Shown piece after piece: positions 2,534-18,245 of a DNA stretch of 64,000 nucleotides. Origin of the DNA: Immundisolibacter cernigliae (GTDB lineage: Bacteria; Pseudomonadota; Gammaproteobacteria; Immundisolibacterales; Immundisolibacteraceae); assembly GCF_001697225.1 (NCBI RefSeq), contig NZ_CP014671.1, positions 186,001 through 250,000 of the forward strand, given 5' to 3'. Each line of letters begins with the position of its first letter. Position 1 is the first letter of the stretch. The notes beneath the pieces were generated by a model. The model saw only the letters and a list, made by a program, of their open reading frames with translations, was not told the DNA's origin and made no database searches. The position numbers and the translations under genes were made by a program.

Positions 2534-3883
2534 TCAAATTTTCGCCGCCGCGAACCGCTCCAGGCTGGCCGGCTCGAAACGCTGCCCATCCACCCGCAGG
2601 TAGGCTACACCTTCCTCCGGAATCACAACCGCCTCGACCACGCCGACCAGCGCCGTCAGCTCGTCGGTCAACGTGCGCGCCCGCTCGGGGCTCAACCGAC
2701 CCACGTCGATGAGCTGCGTTTTCAGGTGGACAGGTGCCTGCAGGCCGATCGACACCGCCAGCCAGATCACGCACAGCGCAAGGCCGGCCAGCAGCACGCC
2801 CGTGGCGCCGTGATGGCCGCGCAACCAGCCGGCCCCTGCCCCGCCGATGAATGCCCCCAGAAACTGCGCGGTTGAATACACGCCCATCGCCGACCCGCGG
2901 CCTGCCATGGGTGCCAGGCGCGACATCATGGACGGCAGCGTGGCCTCCAGCACGTTGAACGCGATCAGGAAGGCCAGCAGCCCGGCCGCCACACCCCACA
3001 GCGCGTGGCTGCCCTCCAGCAGCACCAGCAGGCCGCCGGTAAGCAGGCCCACCATGGCCACGAACACCTGCTTCAGGCGGGCACGCCGCTCGGCGTAGAC
3101 GATCAGCGGCACCATGGCCGCGATCGACAGCAGCACGGTCGGCAGATACAGCCACAGATGCTGCGCCGCTGGCAGGTGCAGGTTGTCGCGCAGCAGCGGC
3201 GGCAGCACCACGAAGGTACCGGTCATCAGCATGTGCAGCGCCATGATGCTGAAGTACAACCGCAGCAGATGCGGGTCGCTCAGCGCCCCGCGCAGTTGCC
3301 CACTCGGCCGGCTGACCGCGCGCGACACCACGGGGGTCGGCACCTGCCACCACAGCAGGCCGATCATGACCAGCGCCAGCACGGCGATCATCAGGAAAAT
3401 GCCCGGCACCGTCAGCCAGGCCGCCAACACCGGCCCCAGCGGCAGCGACACCAGATAGGCCCCGCCGATGCTGATGCCGATGGCGGCCATGCCCTTGCTG
3501 CGCTGCTCCGGGCGCAGCAGATCGGCCAGCAGGGCCATGATCGGCGCCGCCACCGCGCCCGCACCCTGCAGCGCCCGGCCGGCGATGATGACGGTCACGC
3601 TGTGGGCAGCCGCCGCCAGCACGCTGCCGGCGGCAAACAGCAGCAGGCCGACCGTGATGACCGGCTTGCGCCCGAAACGGTCCGACGCGCTGCCAAACGG
3701 AATGCCGAACAGCGCCTGCGTCAGCCCGTACATGCCCAGCGCAAGACCAATCATGGCCGGCGTGGCGCCGGGCAGTGTCTCGGCGTACAGCGCCAGCACC
3801 GGCAGCAGCAGGAACAGCCCCAGCATGCGCAGTATGTAGATGGCCGACAGGGTGCCGGTAACGCGCCGTTCGCTGGGTGTCAT
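2534..3883 (-). CDS. MFS transporter with C-terminal YAM-like domain (YajR-like)
   Basis: This 449-residue membrane protein has twelve hydrophobic segments. The MFS loop 2-3 signature appears as [13 protein letters not shown], and an Arg-containing segment [20 protein letters not shown] forms TM4. After the last membrane segment, about 65 soluble residues ([18 protein letters not shown] onward, ending near [16 protein letters not shown]) look like the small ferredoxin-fold YAM domain of E. coli YajR. The substrate is unknown. The ssb start lies only 26 bases downstream, so the two may be cotranscribed, and uvrA diverges from a shared 167-base promoter region. The ATG at 3883 starts MTPSERR. 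Confidence 0.85.
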
Positions 3884-8839: not shown

Positions 8840-8950
8840 CTATGCCGGAGTCTTGGCGACTGCCATGAAAACCCCGGCCCGGGCGACGTTTGTTCCGACA
8901 GGCGCTGCGGCGCTCCCGCGGCCCACAGCGGCCCACAGCGGCAGCTTCAT
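8840..8950 (-). pseudogene. Remnant of a VapC-type PIN toxin gene
   Basis: Immediately after the antitoxin gene, an ATG overlaps its stop (ATGA) as is usual for TA pairs. The 36-codon frame begins MKLPLWAAVGRG. VapC-like PIN toxins usually begin MKLLLDTH...LWA, so this looks like the first three codons joined to the LWA segment after an internal deletion, followed by nonsense sequence. A 10-base tandem duplication (GCTGTGGGCC twice) lies at the junction. The active-site acids are absent. The interpretation is inference from position and a few residues. Confidence 0.4.
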
Positions 8951-9192
8951 CGGTCTGCGCCAAACAGCTGCGCGATGTGCGCTGCGCCCATGCGGTCAAA
9001 GTCGTCCGGCACCTCGATCTGCCCGGCCAGAAACCCGAGACGCTGGCGCGGCGGTTCGTCCGCGGCTTCCAGCCGGGAGACCTTGACCAGCGGCTTGCCA
9101 GCCTTGGCGATCACAAACGGCTGTCCACGCACCGCTTGGTCGATCAGTTTCGACAGATGGGTCTTGGCTTCGTGAATGTTTATTGTGCGCAT
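8947..9192 (-). CDS. Phd/YefM-family antitoxin, orphaned
   Basis: The 81-residue protein begins MRTINIHEAKTHLSKLIDQ and continues with GQPFVIAKAGKPLVKVSRL. This is the DNA-binding and dimerisation half of Phd/YefM antitoxins that partner PIN-domain toxins. The C-terminal half (LAGQIEVPDDFDRM) is the toxin-neutralising segment. It normally represses its own operon and neutralises a toxin encoded immediately downstream. Here only a toxin scrap remains, so its present role is probably limited to DNA binding, or nil. Confidence 0.88.
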   Translation of the reverse strand: MRTINIHEAKTHLSKLIDQAVRGQPFVIAKAGKPLVKVSRLEAADEPPRQRLGFLAGQIEVPDDFDRMGAAHIAQLFGADR

Positions 9193-10157: not shown

Positions 10158-10169
10158 GGGGCCGGGTCG

Positions 10170-10453
10170 CGCGACGCGGCCGCGTACAAAAACAACAACG
10201 CGGACAACGCTTGTGTCTCGTCGGAGGCCGCCACGTTGCGTTCCACCGCCAGCGATGTCAGAAACGCCTCGACCGCCTCCTTGCCAGCCCCGTGGGTGGC
10301 GCTTGCGGTGAAAGTAGACGTATCGTTTCACACATCGCGCCTATGCACGCTCTGTACGCAGGCTGTAGTGCTTCAGCCGCACACGCTCCCGAAGCTGATC
10401 GAGCAGCTTGGGCGAGGCCGGGACACCGAATGATCGGCAGGAGCAGTGTTCAT
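10170..10453 (-). pseudogene. intI: Integron integrase remnant (N-terminal part only)
   Basis: Read on the minus strand in pieces, this stretch gives the N-terminal SAM-like domain of integron integrases. KLLDQLRERVRLKHYSLRTE (start near 10409) matches LDQLRERIRYLHYSLRTE of IntI1. An in-frame TAG at 10343-10341 replaces the usual Tyr codon, then KRYVYFHRKRHPRG continues. After a one-base frameshift, VEAFLTSLAVERNVAAS and QALSALLFLY (10286 to about 10185) match EAFLSWLANERKVSVS and QALAALLFFY. The catalytic tyrosine-recombinase domain is missing, and the fragment ends against gloB. It points away from the cassettes, the standard integron polarity. Confidence 0.8.
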
Positions 10454-10579
10454 GTGCAGGTCCAGCTTATCGGACAGGGTGAACGTTATGAATCGTGAGG
10501 TTGGCACACGACGCCCAGGTTGCCGGGCGTGTCGGATAATACATTTATTCCGACAAATGTCGGATAACTCACGTTAGGC
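10454..10579 (+). other. Putative integron attI / left cassette boundary
   Basis: Between the intI relic and the first cassette gene lies an AT-richer segment ending in the 7-base core GTTAGGC (10573-10579), which fits the integron R-box consensus GTTRRRY. Just upstream, TGTCGGATAA occurs twice as a direct repeat with an inverted copy (TTATTCCGACA) between them, and a further imperfect palindrome CGACGCCC...GGGCGTGTCG precedes it. The sequence before the core, AACTCACGTTAG, is almost the same as AACTCCACGTTAG at the attC site near 11268. I cannot identify a Pc promoter with certainty. Confidence 0.55.
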
Positions 10580-10595
10580 CTGATAGGCGCGTGCC

Positions 10596-11201
10596 ATGAC
10601 CACTTCTCCTCAGATCGCAATCGTTCACATCGACTCAATTCCGGAGGAGGTCTTCTCCGAGTTTGTGCGAACAATTGCTACCGAACGCCTGAAGCTCGAT
10701 ATTGAGTCACGCGAGAATGGCGAAATTTACGCCGGGTTGGAGTGGCTAATCCCTACGGCGGCCATCATCTACATCGGAAAGTCATACTTCGATGGCTTCT
10801 TGACGGAGATGGGGAAAGATCACTACAACCTATTGAAGGCCGGCTTCATGACACTTCGAGAGAAACTCTTGGGACCCGCCGCGCCGCAAATGGCTGTGGT
10901 ATCGAGCGCAGGGAAGACGTCGCCGAACCAGCCTTACTCTCTTGTCTATTCCATCATGGCAGAGGGTAATGGCAATTTGCGTTTCAAGCTTCTTATTCAG
11001 CGAGAAGTTTCTGAACGCGAGTACGACGAAATTCTTAATGCCTTTCTTGGATTTCTTGAGGCATATCATTCGCATGCGCCAGAGGCCGAATTTGCCGCGA
11101 ATCTGGAAGTACCAAGAGCCTCGGGCGGCATCGTTCTCTTGGCGTTCAATCTGGAAACAAAGACTCTCGAAGCCATCGACCCAATTCCGCGGAAGCCATA
11201 A
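10596..11201 (+). CDS. Hypothetical protein in integron cassette
   Basis: I do not recognise this 201-residue soluble protein. It begins MTTSPQIAIVHIDSIPEEV and has one moderately hydrophobic stretch (LIPTAAIIYIGKSYFDGFL, residues 51-69), mixed alpha/beta content, and no cysteine or obvious catalytic motif. Base composition is visibly less G+C-rich than in the flanking chromosome. The gene sits between two integron recombination cores (10573 and 11268), forming a cassette of about 695 bp with a short leader and its own attC site. That is the classic single-gene cassette layout. Its function is unknown. Confidence 0.75.
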   Translation: MTTSPQIAIVHIDSIPEEVFSEFVRTIATERLKLDIESRENGEIYAGLEWLIPTAAIIYIGKSYFDGFLTEMGKDHYNLLKAGFMTLREKLLGPAAPQMAVVSSAGKTSPNQPYSLVYSIMAEGNGNLRFKLLIQREVSEREYDEILNAFLGFLEAYHSHAPEAEFAANLEVPRASGGIVLLAFNLETKTLEAIDPIPRKP

Positions 11202-11213
11202 ACATGAGGCATA

Positions 11214-11274
11214 GGCCTGCGTTCGAGGCGACCTGCGCGAAAAGCCGCGCAGGCGCCTCAACTCCACGTTAGCT
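11214..11274 (+). repeat. attC recombination site (59-base element)
   Basis: Directly after the cassette gene is an imperfect palindrome with integron attC anatomy. The left arm CGTTCGAGGCG pairs with CGCCTCAACTCCACG with one extrahelical base. The inner arms CCTGCGCG and CGCGCAGG surround a short loop, and the site ends with the core GTTAGCT at 11268-11274. The arrangement closely parallels the aadA attC (CGTTCAAGCCG ... CGGCTTAACTCAAGCGTTAG). The left outer core (expected RYYYAAC) is degenerate (GCCTGCG), so the site may be inactive. Confidence 0.75.
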
Positions 11275-11290
11275 GTCACGAGACAATTAA

Positions 11291-11433
11291 ATGCTAAATC
11301 TCCTGATCGACACTAGCGTGCTTCGCCAAGACCCGCAGAGGAAATCAGCGGCCTTCCAGGTGGTAGGGCGTATCGGCAACGCCCGCGGATTGAAAACTCA
11401 TATACCTGACCTGGTTCGAAGAGAATTCCTTAG
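11291..11433 (+). pseudogene. PIN-domain protein, 5' part (interrupted by IS)
   Basis: The frame starts at ATG 11291, shortly after the attC core, with MLNLLIDTSVLRQDPQRK. This is a PIN-domain start with the first metal-binding Asp in LLIDTSVL, and VRREFL carries the second acidic position. It is cut at codon 48 by an IS5-group element. Removing the IS and one copy of the TTAG duplication joins it in frame to 12658-13663, giving one 382-codon gene. It was therefore the second cassette gene of the relic integron. Confidence 0.75.
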
Positions 11434-12653
11434 GGAAACGCTGATTTATTCCCTCCCGTTGGAGGCATGAGACCTTGGTCCTGAGACAATGTGACCTGGT
11501 CCGCAGCGGTGGTGAGCAGACGTCATGCAAACGAGCTTTTCCGACCTCGAGTACGCCGGCAAGAAGAAGCAGACGCGCCGCGAGCGCTTCCTGGCGCAGC
11601 TGCAGGCGGTGACGCCGTGGGCGCAGCTGGAGGCGGCGCTGGCGCCGTTCTACCCGGCCGGCAAGGGCCCGGGCCGCCCGCCGCTGGGGCTGTCGCGCAT
11701 GCTGCGCATGTACGTGGCGCAGCAGTGCTTTGGGCTGTCGGACGAGGGCATCGAGGACGCCGTGTACGACAGCCACGCCATCCGCTGCTTCATCGGCATC
11801 GACCTGGCCCGCGAGGCGGCGCCGGATGCGACCACGCTGCTGAAGTTCCGCCGCCTGCTGGAAGATCAGGGTCTGAGCCGGGTGATCTTCGAGACGATTC
11901 GCGATCACCTGGCCCGCCAGGGCCTGCTGCTGCGTGAGGGCACCCTCGTGGATGCGACGCTGATCGCCGCCCCGCCGTCGACCAAGAACCGCGACCGGGC
12001 GCGCGATCCGGACATGCATCAGGCCAAGAAGGGGAACCAGTGGCACTTTGGCATGAAGGCGCACATCGGGGTCGACCTGGACTCGGGGCTGGTGCACACG
12101 GTGCTGACCACGCCGGCCAACGTCAACGACGTGACCCAGGCGCACGCCCTGCTGCACGGGCAGGAAACGGACGCGCTGGGCGATGCCGGCTACCAGGGCG
12201 TAGCCAAGCGCCCGGAGAATCGGGACACGCCGGTCACCTGGCACGTGGCGCTGCGCCCGGGCGTGCGCCGGGCCCTGCCCGATGACGCGCTGGGCCGCCT
12301 GCAGGAACGGATCGAACAGGTCAAGGCGAGCCTGCGGGCCAAGGTCGAGCATCCGTTTCACATCATCAAGAACCTGTTCAAGCACCGCAAGGCGCGTTAC
12401 CGGGGGCTGGCCAAGAACCAGGCGCAGCTGTTCACGCTGTTCGGCCTGGCCAACGTGGTGATTGCCGGCTGGCGCCTTCGGGCGCGGCACACCCTCCGTG
12501 CGTCCTGAGGGAGCCCAAAACCGGAATATCCGGCCAGAACACGCACATTGGCCCGATCCACACCCGAAAACGGGCCGTTTTTCCCCAGGGGCGGTCACGC
12601 GTCAGCGCCGTCATGTCCATAGCGCTGGTTTCGGGGGATTGATCAGCGTTTCC
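11434..12653 (+). mobile_element. IS5-family (IS5-group) insertion sequence
   Basis: The 1220-bp element has 12-base terminal inverted repeats GGAAACGCTGAT (left) and ATCAGCGTTTCC (right). It is flanked by a 4-base target duplication TTAG (11430-11433 and 12654-12657), which fits the YTAR target of the IS5 group. It carries one full-length transposase gene and looks structurally complete. Its insertion broke the PIN-domain cassette gene, whose frame is restored exactly when it is removed, so the insertion appears recent relative to decay of that gene. Confidence 0.93.
11525..12508 (+). CDS. IS5-family DDE transposase
   Basis: The 327-residue transposase begins MQTSFSDLEYAGKKKQTRRE, with the IS5 N-terminal domain (LSRMLRMYVAQQCFGLSDEG, FIGIDLAREAAPDATTLLKFR). 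The DDE residues are visible as Asp in GTLVDATLIAAP, Asp in LGDAGYQG and Glu in AKVEHPFHIIK, with the Y-(2)-R-(3)-D-(6)-K like spacing ending RYRGLAKN. The frame is intact and the length is normal for IS5-group enzymes, so the element could be active. Confidence 0.95.
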   Translation: MQTSFSDLEYAGKKKQTRRERFLAQLQAVTPWAQLEAALAPFYPAGKGPGRPPLGLSRMLRMYVAQQCFGLSDEGIEDAVYDSHAIRCFIGIDLAREAAPDATTLLKFRRLLEDQGLSRVIFETIRDHLARQGLLLREGTLVDATLIAAPPSTKNRDRARDPDMHQAKKGNQWHFGMKAHIGVDLDSGLVHTVLTTPANVNDVTQAHALLHGQETDALGDAGYQGVAKRPENRDTPVTWHVALRPGVRRALPDDALGRLQERIEQVKASLRAKVEHPFHIIKNLFKHRKARYRGLAKNQAQLFTLFGLANVVIAGWRLRARHTLRAS

Positions 12654-12657
12654 TTAG

Positions 12658-13663
12658 CTACAGAGATGATGAATATGTCGCTCCTCTAAGAGAAATCGAC
12701 CGGTTGTCGAATAAGATGCTGAAGAAGCCGATGGCTTCAGACCTAAAGGAAACTTTAGAAAAGCAAGCGGCGGCAGGTAAAGGCTCAATTTCTGAAGCGC
12801 AAAGATGGATAGAAGATGAGTTCGCGCAATGGTGTGACCATATTGGCGCTGAAGTCCACACGGTCGCGCCGCATCATGGACAAAGGGTGATAGACGCATA
12901 TTTCTCTGGCTCGCATCCGTTCAAATCACCCAAGAATAGGCAAGACTTTCCAGATGCCTTCATTTTCGAATGTGCACAAGATATTGCGGGCAAGGAGGAG
13001 CATCTTCACGTCGTCGCAGCGGATCGACAGCTACGAGAATCATGTGCATCAATTAACAATATTTCTGTATACGAGTCTCTGGACGACTTTGTGCGGTCAG
13101 CGGCCTGCCAATCTGTCATTAAGGACGCCGACGCGAAGCACCATTTTGCTGAGATCCTAGAACTAATAAAGGCGCGCGCCTCGATCGTAGGCGAAGCGGC
13201 GTCTAAGAAGATATTCGACGCTCTCGTTTGGTACACGTTTCGAGATTCATCAATACCCGATGATAACAATGAGGCCACGATTTCAATGTTGGACGTGCCA
13301 ACCAACGGGGGCCTCATCTGGGACGAGGCGGAGTACTATGGAGATGGCGTAATTTCAATGCCTTTCGAATTTGAAATGACGGTCTTGGCCGATTTCTATA
13401 TTTTCAAATCCGACTGGTACTGCATGCCCGAAGATAAGTCATCGCAAATTAGCATTTCAGAATACGACAATAAGCACTACTTTGAGGCCGAACAGGAGTT
13501 CGAGTTACATGTGCGTGGAACGATTGCAATCAGCTTGGACCTATCAAGGGCGGCGCACGGACCAGAGTTCGTCTCGTCATTGGGGCCGATCCTAGACACT
13601 ATGCAGATTGAGATGTCGGAGATCGAAGAGGTCACCGTGATAACAGACGAGACCGCGCAATAA
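12658..13663 (+). pseudogene. PIN-domain protein, 3' part (interrupted by IS)
   Basis: This is the continuation of the gene that starts at 11291. After excision of the IS, the frame reads FLSYRDDEYVAPLREIDRLSNK and on to FPDAFIFECAQ and HVVAADRQLRES, which look like the third and fourth acidic positions of a PIN nuclease fold. A C-terminal extension of about 200 residues of unknown type follows and ends VTVITDETAQ. An isolated frame could start at TTG 12704 but would lack the N-terminal catalytic Asp. Base composition is low in G+C. No attC follows; a REP element begins 31 bases after the stop. Confidence 0.75.
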
Positions 13664-13694
13664 GCCCAGCGCATTGCGCCGCATTGTGTTTGAG

Positions 13695-13730
13695 CCCGCG
13701 TAGGGCGGAATAGCGCAGCGTATTCCGCCT
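13695..13730. repeat. REP palindrome, left of RAYT
   Basis: The element begins CCCGCGTAGGGCGGAATAG and closes with GCAGCGTATTCCGCC; GGCGGAATA and TATTCCGCC form its stem. The same sequence recurs in opposite orientation at 14307-14344, bracketing the RAYT relic. REP pairs around RAYT genes are the known source arrangement of these repeats. Confidence 0.85.
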
Positions 13731-13766
13731 TCCGGGTTGCCCCGCAGCCACCGTTACACTCCCGCC

Positions 13767-14294
13767 ATGCCGCACTACGTTCGTGCTGACATCCCTGGCG
13801 GAACCTTCTTCTTCACTGTCGCCCTGCTCGAACGCCGCCGCCGGCTGTTGGTCGAGAACATCGGGACGCTGCGCGAAGCGTTTCGCGGCGTCCGGCATCG
13901 GTATCCGTTCACCATCGACGCCATCGTGATCCTCCCGGATCACCTGCACTGCGTCTGGACACTGCCGCCCGGCGATGCCGATTTTTCCACCCGCTGGCGA
14001 CCGATCAAAGCCGCCTTCGCGCGCGGCATCGCGGCTGGGGAACGGCGGTCCGAACGACGCCAGCGCACCGGCGAGCGCGGCATCTGGCGGCGGCGCTTCT
14101 GGGAACACGCGATCCGCGATGCGGCCGACCCGAGTTGACCCGTGGACTCCATCCATCCCAACCCCGTGAAACACGGCCACGCCGACCGGGTTGTGGACTG
14201 GCCGTATTCGTCGTTTCACCGCTACGTCGAGCGGGGTGTTTATCCACCGGATTGGGCCGCCGGATCAGCAGTGCGCGGGGTGAGTTTCGAGTAG
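13767..14294 (+). pseudogene. REP-associated tyrosine transposase (RAYT), inactivated
   Basis: RAYTs are IS200-like HUH nucleases linked to REP repeats. The frame begins MPHYVRADIPGGTFFFTVAL and shows the HUH metal motif in ILPDHLHCVW. The segment GIWRRRFWEHAIRDAAD follows, where an in-frame TGA at 14136-14138 interrupts the gene. The same frame resumes with VDSIHPNPVKHG and DWPYSSFHRY to a TAG at 14294. The usual DYIHYNPVKHG box has lost its tyrosines (DSIHP), so the catalytic Tyr appears gone as well. It is a dead copy between inverted REPs. Confidence 0.85.
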
Positions 14295-14306
14295 CCTTGC
14301 TCTCGG

Positions 14307-15824
<1,518 letters not shown>

Positions 15825-15874
15825 GGCTCTATCCTCTCAAGGGAATGAGCCTCCGGGAAAGCCGGGGCGGTTCA

Positions 15875-16043
15875 GTTCGGAGGTGGCCGGCCCGTCGAAG
15901 GCAACCAGGATGTCGACGTCGCTATCGCTGCGCGCGGCGTCACGGGCGGTGGAGCCGAACAGGGCCAGCCGCACAACGCCGTAGCGCTCGGCCAGCGTGG
16001 GCTTGCAGTGGGCGAGCAAGTCAAGGGCGCGCGAGCGATTCAT
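15875..16043 (-). pseudogene. MntA-like nucleotidyltransferase antitoxin, N-terminal remnant
   Basis: The frame begins MNRSRALDLLAHCKPTLAER and carries the minimal nucleotidyltransferase signature GSTARDAARSDSDVDILV (family GSxAxG...SDxDL). MntA antitoxins AMPylate or otherwise silence HepT. The frame runs into the IS3-family terminal repeat after about 57 codons, so the C-terminal half is lost. With 14335-14566 it forms a broken mntA-hepT module. Confidence 0.8.
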
Positions 16044-16398
16044 CACAACTTCCGTGCGCAGGTCAGTTGCCGGCTAGTGTAAGACGCAACAGCGCGGCAC
16101 GCCGACGTCGAAGGTGGCCGGCTGCGGCCCGGTACACGAGCTTTGCGTCGGGCACTCGGTGCACGCCTGACGGGTTTGCGCGCGCCTGCGCGTTGCTTGA
16201 GGCAACACACGAGGTGCCGAATTGGAAACACGCCTTCGCGAACTTCCGCCGACCGAACGAATCAAGCGCGCACCCGGAAAGGCGGACCGATCGCGGACAC
16301 CTTCGATAGCGTCGGCGTACCCCACGCAGGTGGCAGGCACAATACGCGCCGCGCGTTCGGAAAATCCGCCGTGCCCCAGCATCCACGGACGTGAATAA
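16044..16398. other. Intergenic region without recognised gene
   Basis: I see no gene here. Reading frames on both strands are short, and none shows a motif or a ribosome site. It holds the promoter region of the downstream yaeQ gene. A minus-strand frame continues into arginine-rich sequence of no recognisable family. Confidence 0.5.
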
Positions 16399-16944
16399 AT
16401 GGCCCTCAAAGCCACCATCTACAAAGTCGACCTGCAAATCGCCGACATGGACCGGCATTACTACGCCGAGCACAACCTGACGCTGGCGCGGCATCCGTCC
16501 GAAACCGACGAACGCATGATGGCGCGCGTGCTGATGTACGCCCTGAACGCGCAGGAAGGCATCGCCTTCACCCGCGGCTTGTCGGAGGCCGACGAACCGG
16601 AAATCTGGGTCAAGGACCTGACCGGCCAGATCACGCTGTGGATCGACATCGGCCAGCCGGACGAGGCCCGCCTGCGCAAGGCCTGCGGTCGGGCCGGGCA
16701 AGTGATCGCCCTGTGCCACAGCAGCAGTTGCGATCTGTGGTGGAAGCAGATCCAAAGCAAGCTGACGCGCCTGACTAATCTGAGCGTGCTGCAACTGCCG
16801 GTGGCCGACAGCCAGGCCCTGGCCGCGCTGGCGCAGCGCACCATGCGCCTGCAATGCCTGGTGCAGGACGACGAGGTGTGGATCAGCACCGACGCCGAGC
16901 GCGTGTCGGTCAGGCTCAGTCCGCTCAAGGTGGCGGCGCAATAG
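16399..16944 (+). CDS. yaeQ: YaeQ family protein
   Basis: The 181-residue protein matches the full length of E. coli YaeQ. It begins MALKATIYKVDLQIADMDRHYY, with the family features HPSETDERMMARVLMYAL, FTRGLSEADEPEIW and the C-terminal half SSSCDLWWKQIQSKL. The fold is related to the PD-(D/E)xK nuclease superfamily, with candidate acidic and basic residues around DEPEIWVKDLTG and WIDIGQPD. The biological role is not established. It is a single gene with no obvious partner. Confidence 0.95.
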   Translation: MALKATIYKVDLQIADMDRHYYAEHNLTLARHPSETDERMMARVLMYALNAQEGIAFTRGLSEADEPEIWVKDLTGQITLWIDIGQPDEARLRKACGRAGQVIALCHSSSCDLWWKQIQSKLTRLTNLSVLQLPVADSQALAALAQRTMRLQCLVQDDEVWISTDAERVSVRLSPLKVAAQ

Positions 16945-16992
16945 CATCGACCGCCGCACCCCGCGGCAGTTCGGAAGGTTCCGATCGCGATC

Positions 16993-17026
16993 CGGCGGGT
17001 GACGGCTTCGCCTAACCCGCCCTACG
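16993..17026. repeat. REP-like palindrome
   Basis: A hairpin-forming sequence (GGCGGGTGACGGCTTCGCC, then TAACCCGCCCTACG) belongs to the widespread family of REP-type repeats reading GTAGGGCGGGTTAGGCGAAGCC on the other strand. It abuts the ppsR-like fragment that follows. Confidence 0.7.
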
Positions 17027-17110
17027 TGAACTGCGCGTTCCAGAGCCTGGACATCCCGCGCCTGGACTCGACCCACAAGTCGATCGAGGAAATCTCGACC
17101 AACGTGATTC
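17027..17110 (+). pseudogene. 3' fragment resembling PEP synthase regulatory protein
   Basis: This 28-codon frame reads NCAFQSLDIPRLDSTHKSIE, then EISTNVIQ. The C-terminus of PpsR-type kinase/pyrophosphorylases has the pattern IPTINTTHYSVEEIATKIL, so this looks like the tail of a deleted ppsR gene. The rest of that gene is absent. The frame then runs into the converging HDOD gene. The match is short and rests on recall of the family. Confidence 0.45.
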
Positions 17111-18245
17111 AGCCGTTCGGACGGCGGCCGGGCAGCCCGGCCAGTCGGCGCTCGACGGCCGGCTCGCCCAGCACTGCCTGCACGTCGTCAATACCAATCG
17201 CCGCCATATAGTCCGCCAGGTAGTAAGCCTCCGGACGGGCGAACATGTCCTGCAATGCGGCGGGCAGATCGAAATCGACCTGCCGCGACAGCGCCCGCGC
17301 CAACCGCGTGGAGAAATGCCCGAGCGCCACGCCGGGCAGCATGTCGGTCGCCACTGACTCCGGTCCCCCAACCAGCGGAGCCAGGCTGCACCGCAGCAGT
17401 GTGTGCAGTTGCGGCGGCAGGCCCCAGACCTGCGCCAGGTGCGCGCCGATCATGGCGGAATTGAACCCGAAGCGCTGCTGCGTCTGATCGACCAGCTCGA
17501 TCAGGTCCGGATCGGCGTGATACAGGCCCGCCATCTGCGGATGATGTGAAACCAGCACGATATCGCCCAGCCTGAACAGCAGGGCCTGCGTAGCCAGAAT
17601 GGAGGGCGACGGCATTCGCAGACGCTGCGCCAACGCCAGCGTAATGCCGCTGGCCAGATAGCTGTCTCGCCACAGCCCCTGATAGATGCGCTCGGCGGTC
17701 AGGTCGCGGATATCCGAGGGGATCGCCATGGAGTGGCGCACCGCGATGTCACGCACCAGGTTGGCACCCAGGAACGTGATGGCATGCTGCACGCTGATGA
17801 TTTCGCGGCTCAGGTTGAACTGCGCGGAGTTGACCGTGCGCAGCAACAGCGCGACGGTGGCCGGGTCCGTGGCGACGACACGCGCCACCTCGGCCGGATC
17901 ATCACCGGCCTGCACCAGTTGCAGCATGATGCCGCGGGGCCGGGGCAGCGCATCGACCAGGCTCGTCAGCTGCAGCGCCACGTCCGGCGCCAGCATGTCG
18001 TAGTCGAGCAGGTGCAGGACCGGAGCGGCGATTGGCTCGACGGCGGGCATTGCGCCGGCCGCGGGCGCCGGAATTGTCGTCGATGCCGTCCCGCCCAGGT
18101 CACCGCTCGCCTTGATGGCCGTGCTGCGGGACAAACGCTGCGCCCGGGGCGCCGTTCGCTTGCGCTCGGGCTGCGCCGAACGAGTCGCCGGCCACAGGAA
18201 CACGAGCAAGCCGACAAGCAATCCGCTCAATACGAGGTATGACAC
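17109..18245 (-). CDS. HDOD domain protein with N-terminal membrane anchor
   Basis: The 378-residue protein has an N-terminal hydrophobic segment (YLVLSGLLVGLLVFLWPAT, residues 3-21), then an Ala/Pro-rich basic linker of about 55 residues. An HDOD domain follows from about residue 90 (LTSLVDALPRPRGIMLQLVQ, VARVVATDPATVALLLRTVNS, SVQHAITFLGANLVRDIAV). HDOD domains resemble HD phosphohydrolases without the metal site and act as signalling adaptors. The TM anchor suggests a membrane-proximal role. It is monocistronic as far as I can see, and its partner is unknown. Confidence 0.85.
   Translation of the reverse strand: MSYLVLSGLLVGLLVFLWPATRSAQPERKRTAPRAQRLSRSTAIKASGDLGGTASTTIPAPAAGAMPAVEPIAAPVLHLLDYDMLAPDVALQLTSLVDALPRPRGIMLQLVQAGDDPAEVARVVATDPATVALLLRTVNSAQFNLSREIISVQHAITFLGANLVRDIAVRHSMAIPSDIRDLTAERIYQGLWRDSYLASGITLALAQRLRMPSPSILATQALLFRLGDIVLVSHHPQMAGLYHADPDLIELVDQTQQRFGFNSAMIGAHLAQVWGLPPQLHTLLRCSLAPLVGGPESVATDMLPGVALGHFSTRLARALSRQVDFDLPAALQDMFARPEAYYLADYMAAIGIDDVQAVLGEPAVERRLAGLPGRRPNG

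Follow-up and report, generated by a model that had tools for sequence, protein, structure and literature searches.

An integron relic beside gloB in Immundisolibacter cernigliae, one of several attI platforms on a chromosome in which no integron integrase was found

How do gene cassettes come to stand behind attI sites on a chromosome in which no working integron integrase is found? The question is raised by a locus beside gloB at positions 10163-13663 of a 64,000-nucleotide stretch of the Immundisolibacter cernigliae chromosome (NZ_CP014671.1, positions 186,001 to 250,000; hereafter the window). The initial annotation had taken it for a fossil integron with a recognisable intI relic, an attI-like core and an attC site, and had treated it as a single locus, a scope that was too small, since six other platforms on the same 3.24-Mb chromosome were overlooked. 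Our analysis confirms the fossil. The integrase of this integron platform has lost its catalytic part, and the window locus, probably a fixed relic today, belongs to a set of at least seven attI platforms on the chromosome. We further infer, with a probability of roughly 60%, that an integrase acted on these platforms in trans after the local intI genes had been lost, and that this enzyme has itself since disappeared.

The intI relic (10163-10406, minus strand) consists of two pieces that match the IntI profile TIGR02249, as the initial annotation had expected of such a search. The first, at 10290-10406 (G000:C1:196290-196406, where G000 is the present genome), covers profile positions 1-39 (E 3.9e-6) and contains one TAG stop; the second, at 10163-10285 (G000:C1:196163-196285), covers positions 42-82 (E 1.6e-7) and sits in a different frame, so that the gene is broken by one frameshift and one stop. 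The pieces carry the N-terminal motifs from which the relic had first been recognised, including QALSALLFLY. Because TIGR02249 describes a family shared by tyrosine recombinases and also matches in all 14 control genomes, the pieces were compared directly with an intact IntI, which gave 63.2 and 43.5 bits (57% over 44 amino acids and 71% over 34), and with the genome's own two complete tyrosine recombinases, which gave at most 19.2 bits. Instead of a functional intI, the locus holds only the broken profile positions 1-39 and 42-82. The catalytic C-terminal part is gone, as had been claimed: the profile search of the one-contig genome returned no integron-integrase match over the family cut-off and no C-terminal IntI piece besides two complete below-cut-off genes, which are read as XerC/XerD. 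A sequence model, R3, scores 138.4 bits at 10297-10473, the window locus itself being among its training sequences.

On the plus strand, the region upstream of the attI core (10407-10572) aligns with that of other loci of the same type, termed type A below, and contains the 10-base direct repeats TGTCGGATAA at 10530 and 10558. They precede the core GTTAGGC (10573-10579; crossover G^TT at 10573), which is homologous to attI at other loci, and both observations bear out its earlier description as attI-like. The distance from an anchor at intI codon 40 to the crossover is 276 bases here and 274 at the loci at 2797 and 3066 kb. Judged by sequence, a putative attI site lies beside intI, as in an integron. 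The gene of the first cassette (10596-11201, plus strand) encodes a 201-amino-acid protein of unknown function with no Pfam match above the cut-off, and is followed on the same strand by an attC at 11209-11274 with a decayed R'' box (GCATAGG) and an intact R' box (GTTAGCT). The earlier proposal of an attC near 11214-11274 stands by homology, whereas the model test alone came near to refuting it: our covariance model scores 11209-11273 at 11.1 bits (E 1.3), and four of the nine covariance hits in the window outrank the site, the attI core accounting for one of the four and unrelated sequence for the other three. The score is weak because the R'' box reads GCATAGG and not RYYYAAC. By homology, 57 bases of the site are 95% identical to an intact attC at 3,111,041-3,111,106, which reaches 35.6 bits in the same model, and relatives of cassette 1 occur at four loci of the genome contigs searched. 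One of these, 87% identical in protein sequence, lies on contig DIKT01000095.1 of a metagenome-assembled genome labelled Desulfobulbaceae, and the attC that closes its cassette has an intact R'' box, GCATAAC. Because of the 95% match and the occurrence of the same cassette with an intact attC, we regard 11209-11274 as a decayed attC, identified by homology. Past attI, there is one cassette with a decayed attC in the integron orientation and a second cassette without attC.

For the covariance model, 11 attCs from 8 further genomes of the class were selected out of 39 hits by length and position and given a structure drawn by hand; this model replaced an earlier one with five pairs. Two home-made attC scanners were dropped in favour of this model and of homology, the first having found few sites and the second giving 8 hits (score of at least 17) per 119,000 background bases. 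Of the first-look candidates in the genome-wide attC search, only 150 of 3204 in this genome and 150 of 3163 in G001, a draft genome of the same genus, were scored, and the search missed local attCs at the 2797-kb and 3066-kb loci and at the C14 locus of G001, so the attC counts given below are lower bounds.

The window locus has company. The same profile search found five further IntI 5' fragments in the genome, at 1700, 2797, 2826, 3066 and 3107 kb, which brings the chromosome to seven attI loci, six with a 5' intI fragment and one with an attI-like site only. The latter, at 133.5 kb, combines a type-B-like attI (29 bases, 90%) that has a changed core with two cassette genes and two attCs, and has no intI. 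By DNA comparison, the heads (the part from the intI fragment to attI) fall into three types: A in the window and at 2797 and 3066 kb, B at 2826 and 1700 kb, and C at 3107 kb. Sites of the attC kind are present at most of the seven loci, two of them at 1700 kb as at 133.5 kb; the model gives six hits in the genome (E 1.5e-8 to 0.015), of which five fall at integron loci, and a lone attC lies at 641,886. Among nine cassette-type genes of the other loci, four have a Pfam match (0.01), namely to DUF6998, a UvrD helicase, a major intrinsic protein and an AAA domain. At 2826 kb, a short palindromic element lies right past the attI core; its ends resemble those of the insertion sequence in the window, and it is perhaps a miniature inverted-repeat transposable element.

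What happened to these platforms can be followed in related genomes. An integrase-family match over the cut-off occurs in 33 of the 95 genomes of a wider set and in none of the seven genomes that share the genus, family or order of I. cernigliae. G001 contains eight intI 5' fragments, five of which lie at the positions occupied in I. cernigliae and have the same head type: at gloB and at what we take, from sequence, to be uvrD, a sulP-type gene, an acyl-CoA dehydrogenase position and an erpA-type gene. At the sixth shared position, presumably that of an AMP-ligase gene, I. cernigliae has a type-B head (2826 kb) and G001 a type-A head, and G002, a further genome of the genus, has a longer form with profile positions 1-122; with three different heads in three genomes, this position may be an ancestral seat. 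For gloB, the earlier view of a chromosomal integron resident there is true of I. cernigliae and G001, which has a relic fragment at this position, and is not supported in G002, where no intI relic was found beside gloB. Since none was found there and the locus is one of seven, gloB is not established as the ancestral seat. The attI side of the gloB locus is moreover unrelated in G001, where other genes precede yaeQ, and for this reason the locus does not contribute to the comparison that follows. The yaeQ neighbourhood (16399-18245) is itself rearranged in G001, the homologous stretch being split between contigs C8 and C23. By eye, a host gene in the same direction directly precedes seven of nine distinct loci, the exceptions being 3066 kb and C12. 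We also considered a mobile unit whose left end is fixed at intI codon 40, an idea that lost ground because the breaks lie, again by eye, at about codons 40, 43-45, 54, 65 and 82.

The comparison concerns four loci, 1700/C1, 3107/C14, 2797/C13 and 3066/C6 (position in kb in I. cernigliae and contig in G001), where the two species can be aligned through the left flank, the intI truncation junction and the head. At 1700/C1, an uninterrupted match begins in the final bases of the acyl-CoA dehydrogenase gene of I. cernigliae, crosses the truncation junction and attI (85.7%, L108 255-640), ends exactly at the crossover G and returns at 94.7% past two unrelated arrays; the dehydrogenase gene is absent from G001, yet the flanks match on both sides. 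At 3107/C14, the left junction is shared, an insertion in C14 interrupts the head, and homology then resumes, ends three bases past the crossover G and is collinear again in the right flank. The left junctions are contiguous at 2797/C13 (93.8% over 1673 bases) and 3066/C6 (94.2% over 1678 bases), with divergence four bases past the crossover G at both. The first cassettes differ between the species at all four loci, and no gene-length match other than insertion sequences was found between orthologous arrays, four of the eight G001 arrays being cut by contig ends. Shared truncation junctions in front of different cassettes indicate that the truncations predate the species split and that cassettes changed later in at least one lineage, and joins this precise at the core point to site-specific recombination.

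An ordinary account of such loci would be that several chromosomal integrons decayed independently, each having had a working integrase until it was lost, the cassette differences then being older than the death of the local intI. It has precedent, as nearly one third of intI genes are pseudogenes according to a passage of one survey (PMC2426708) and 22% of intI-bearing genomes contain more than one intI according to a passage of another (PMC9024848). The type-A heads also retain a trace of coding life, since their differences over all pairs are skewed to third codon positions (191/139/282), so that some of the divergence arose while the gene was coding. Against this, singleton differences are spread over the codon positions (13/8/11) as in dead sequence, and the truncation junction common to both species at four loci with differing cassettes places the change after local truncation. 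We therefore consider independent decay unlikely.

A second way to obtain different arrays behind similar heads would be to shuffle arrays between loci by homologous recombination or gene conversion of the heads, without an integrase. The type-A tree, star-like with support values from 11 to 86 and without clear orthologue pairing, is what such exchange would leave, and so is the AMP-ligase position, with type B in one species and type A in the other. Exchange through the heads is hard to reconcile with homology that stops at the attI crossover and not inside the head, or with right flanks that are collinear at 1700/C1 and 3107/C14. Different loci share only insertion sequences and pieces of 41-189 bases, which, where identified, are an attC, insertion-sequence ends, repetitive extragenic palindromic (REP)-like repeats and a type-C attI piece; a 124-154-base segment in three G001 arrays, first considered a shared cassette, has differing flanks (by eye) and was reassigned to an insertion-sequence end. 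Head shuffling is, on balance, quite improbable.

We instead favour an integrase acting in trans. Before the two species separated, platforms would have become established at a number of host loci, and their local intI genes would then have been cut down; for a time, an integrase encoded elsewhere would have recombined cassettes in trans at the headless attI sites, and with its later loss the arrays would have frozen and insertion sequences entered. Several points weigh against this reading. No candidate for the trans-acting integrase was found in I. cernigliae and none over the family cut-off in the seven close relatives, so the actor is hypothetical, and the copying of whole heads to several loci has no explanation in this scenario. 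Both flanks are available at only two of the four loci (1700/C1 and 3107/C14), G001 is a draft whose contigs end within four arrays, and one of the 11 training attCs of the covariance model (L050) was entered on the wrong strand. In a stronger form of this reading, a distributed integron, a single integrase would have worked in trans on seven or more headless attI platforms, which were of three attI types and scattered across the chromosome, until the enzyme was lost and all froze; this form is tentative and falls somewhat short of even odds.

One array in G001 brings two attI types together. On contig C3, behind a type-A attI and a gene comes a stretch of 80 bases that matches type-C attI at 80% identity (E 3.4e-14; L130 6942-7020) and has its own GTTAGGT core, and then a second gene; by eye, no attC lies between the first gene and this stretch, and further on the attC model has a hit at L130 7362 (16.7 bits, E 0.13). 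Sites of two attI types are thus joined at one locus. By analogy, the partial type-C site looks like an attI-type cassette, and it may also be a decayed tandem platform.

The age of the heads was gauged against the third codon positions of host genes, which are 89.5-93.7% identical between I. cernigliae and G001 for five genes, the sixth (acyl-CoA dehydrogenase) having no counterpart. The intI parts of the five orthologous relics are 80, 85, 89, 90 and 95% identical, which places three pairs below this neutral yardstick, one level with it and the type-C pair above. Together with the star-like tree, these identities fit a copying of heads shortly before the species split. A further explanation, compatible with the other readings, is that intI 5' ends were retained for the cassette promoter Pc, deletions being tolerated only up to its upstream edge. 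Codons 1-40 are kept in 14 aligned intI-bearing heads of the two genomes, several of which break at about codons 40-45 (by eye), and for the 12 heads in which it was measured, the distance between codon-40 anchor and crossover is 221-276 bases, similar to the 223-252 bp between the class 1 Pc and attI1 stated in a passage of PMC8876359. The promoter itself is harder to see: of 14 heads scored for sigma-70 promoters, 13 stay under the 95th percentile of shuffles even with their best candidate (9.5; from shuffles of three heads), a candidate common to three type-B heads scores only 7.4, and the one head above the threshold, at 3107 kb (10.2), has an orthologue in C14 that reaches 3.7 at best. 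No promoter was found on the plus strand of the window segment. The intI identities relative to third codon positions show no constraint either, type C being a possible exception; at 133.5 kb the whole head has been lost, and the count of heads that keep intI is biased because heads were found through their intI part. Retention for Pc is possible, though not likely.

The second cassette of the window locus contains a PIN-type gene on the plus strand, which the initial annotation had rightly recognised as a PIN-domain gene without noticing that an insertion sequence splits it. Its 5' piece (11291-11433) has no Pfam match by itself, and its 3' piece (12654-13663) contains the PIN_12 domain (12704-13660, E 8.2e-11) and has no plasmid relative at E 1e-5. 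Between them lies an IS5-type element of 1220 bp (11434-12653, plus strand) with a DDE transposase gene at 11525-12508, bordered by a duplicated TTAG (11430-11433 and 12654-12657); at the 3107-kb locus, two 99.8% identical copies of it stand in tandem. The covariance model found no attC after the PIN gene in the window, and in its place come a repeat and a REP-type transposase gene. The latter (Y1_Tnp, 13767-14138, at the Pfam cut-off) lies just past the array within 13694-14344, flanked by identical 36-base inverted repeats (13694-13729 and 14309-14344). Beyond it, at 14335-16046, a HepT/nucleotidyltransferase pair seems to have been split by an IS3-type element, which contains an ALIL frameshift element (15430-15546) and whose transposase frame continues into a HepT domain; an Rfam search of the window returned nothing but one IS3 ALIL element. 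Upstream of gloB, a Phd/YefM antitoxin gene lies at 8947-9192 on the minus strand.

The seven platforms with their three attI types form an ordered series of truncation, later cassette change and final freezing. They make attI service in trans, and selection on the promoter part of intI, testable, and a distributed integron, if true, would have spread gene capture over many host loci. A literature search, with most subscription papers outside its reach, returned no description of attI sites exchanging cassettes after integrase loss at several loci per chromosome, and no paper joining an integron with Immundisolibacter. One close likeness is to the sedentary integrons at ilvD in Xanthomonas, in which, according to passages of PMC12444791, the intI next to a host gene has disappeared or been truncated, the arrays are short and stable once inactivated and clusters of attC sites lacking integron integrases (CALINs) occur elsewhere; there, intI has one seat, whereas here at least seven attI-bearing loci share a chromosome in which no integrase was found. 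CALINs resemble the present loci in having attC cassettes without intI, and the same source indicates that a functional IntI acting in trans can move them. Their routes of formation include, as stated in part of PMC8618304, off-target insertion by an IntI located at another place in the genome. The default of IntegronFinder 2, as given in a section of PMC9024848, calls a CALIN at two or more attC sites without intI, and the window locus has one attC, which is decayed. Unlike CALINs, the present loci keep attI and, in six of seven cases, a 5' intI fragment, which marks them as degraded platforms and not as clusters of attC sites alone. They share with the multiple and pseudogene integrons described in parts of PMC2426708 the presence of more than one intI per genome and the frequency of pseudogenes, and differ from them in that all copies found here are 5'-only remnants with truncations common to two species. 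The C3 array of G001 recalls the attI-type cassettes of class 1 and 2 integrons, which, in passages of PMC12901181, have a partial attI as 3' site instead of an attC; those are known from mobile resistance integrons, whereas here a chromosomal array joins two attI types. Integron decay and its single parts are already known; what appears to be new is the arrangement, that is, the number of attI platforms and the truncation that came before the cassette change.

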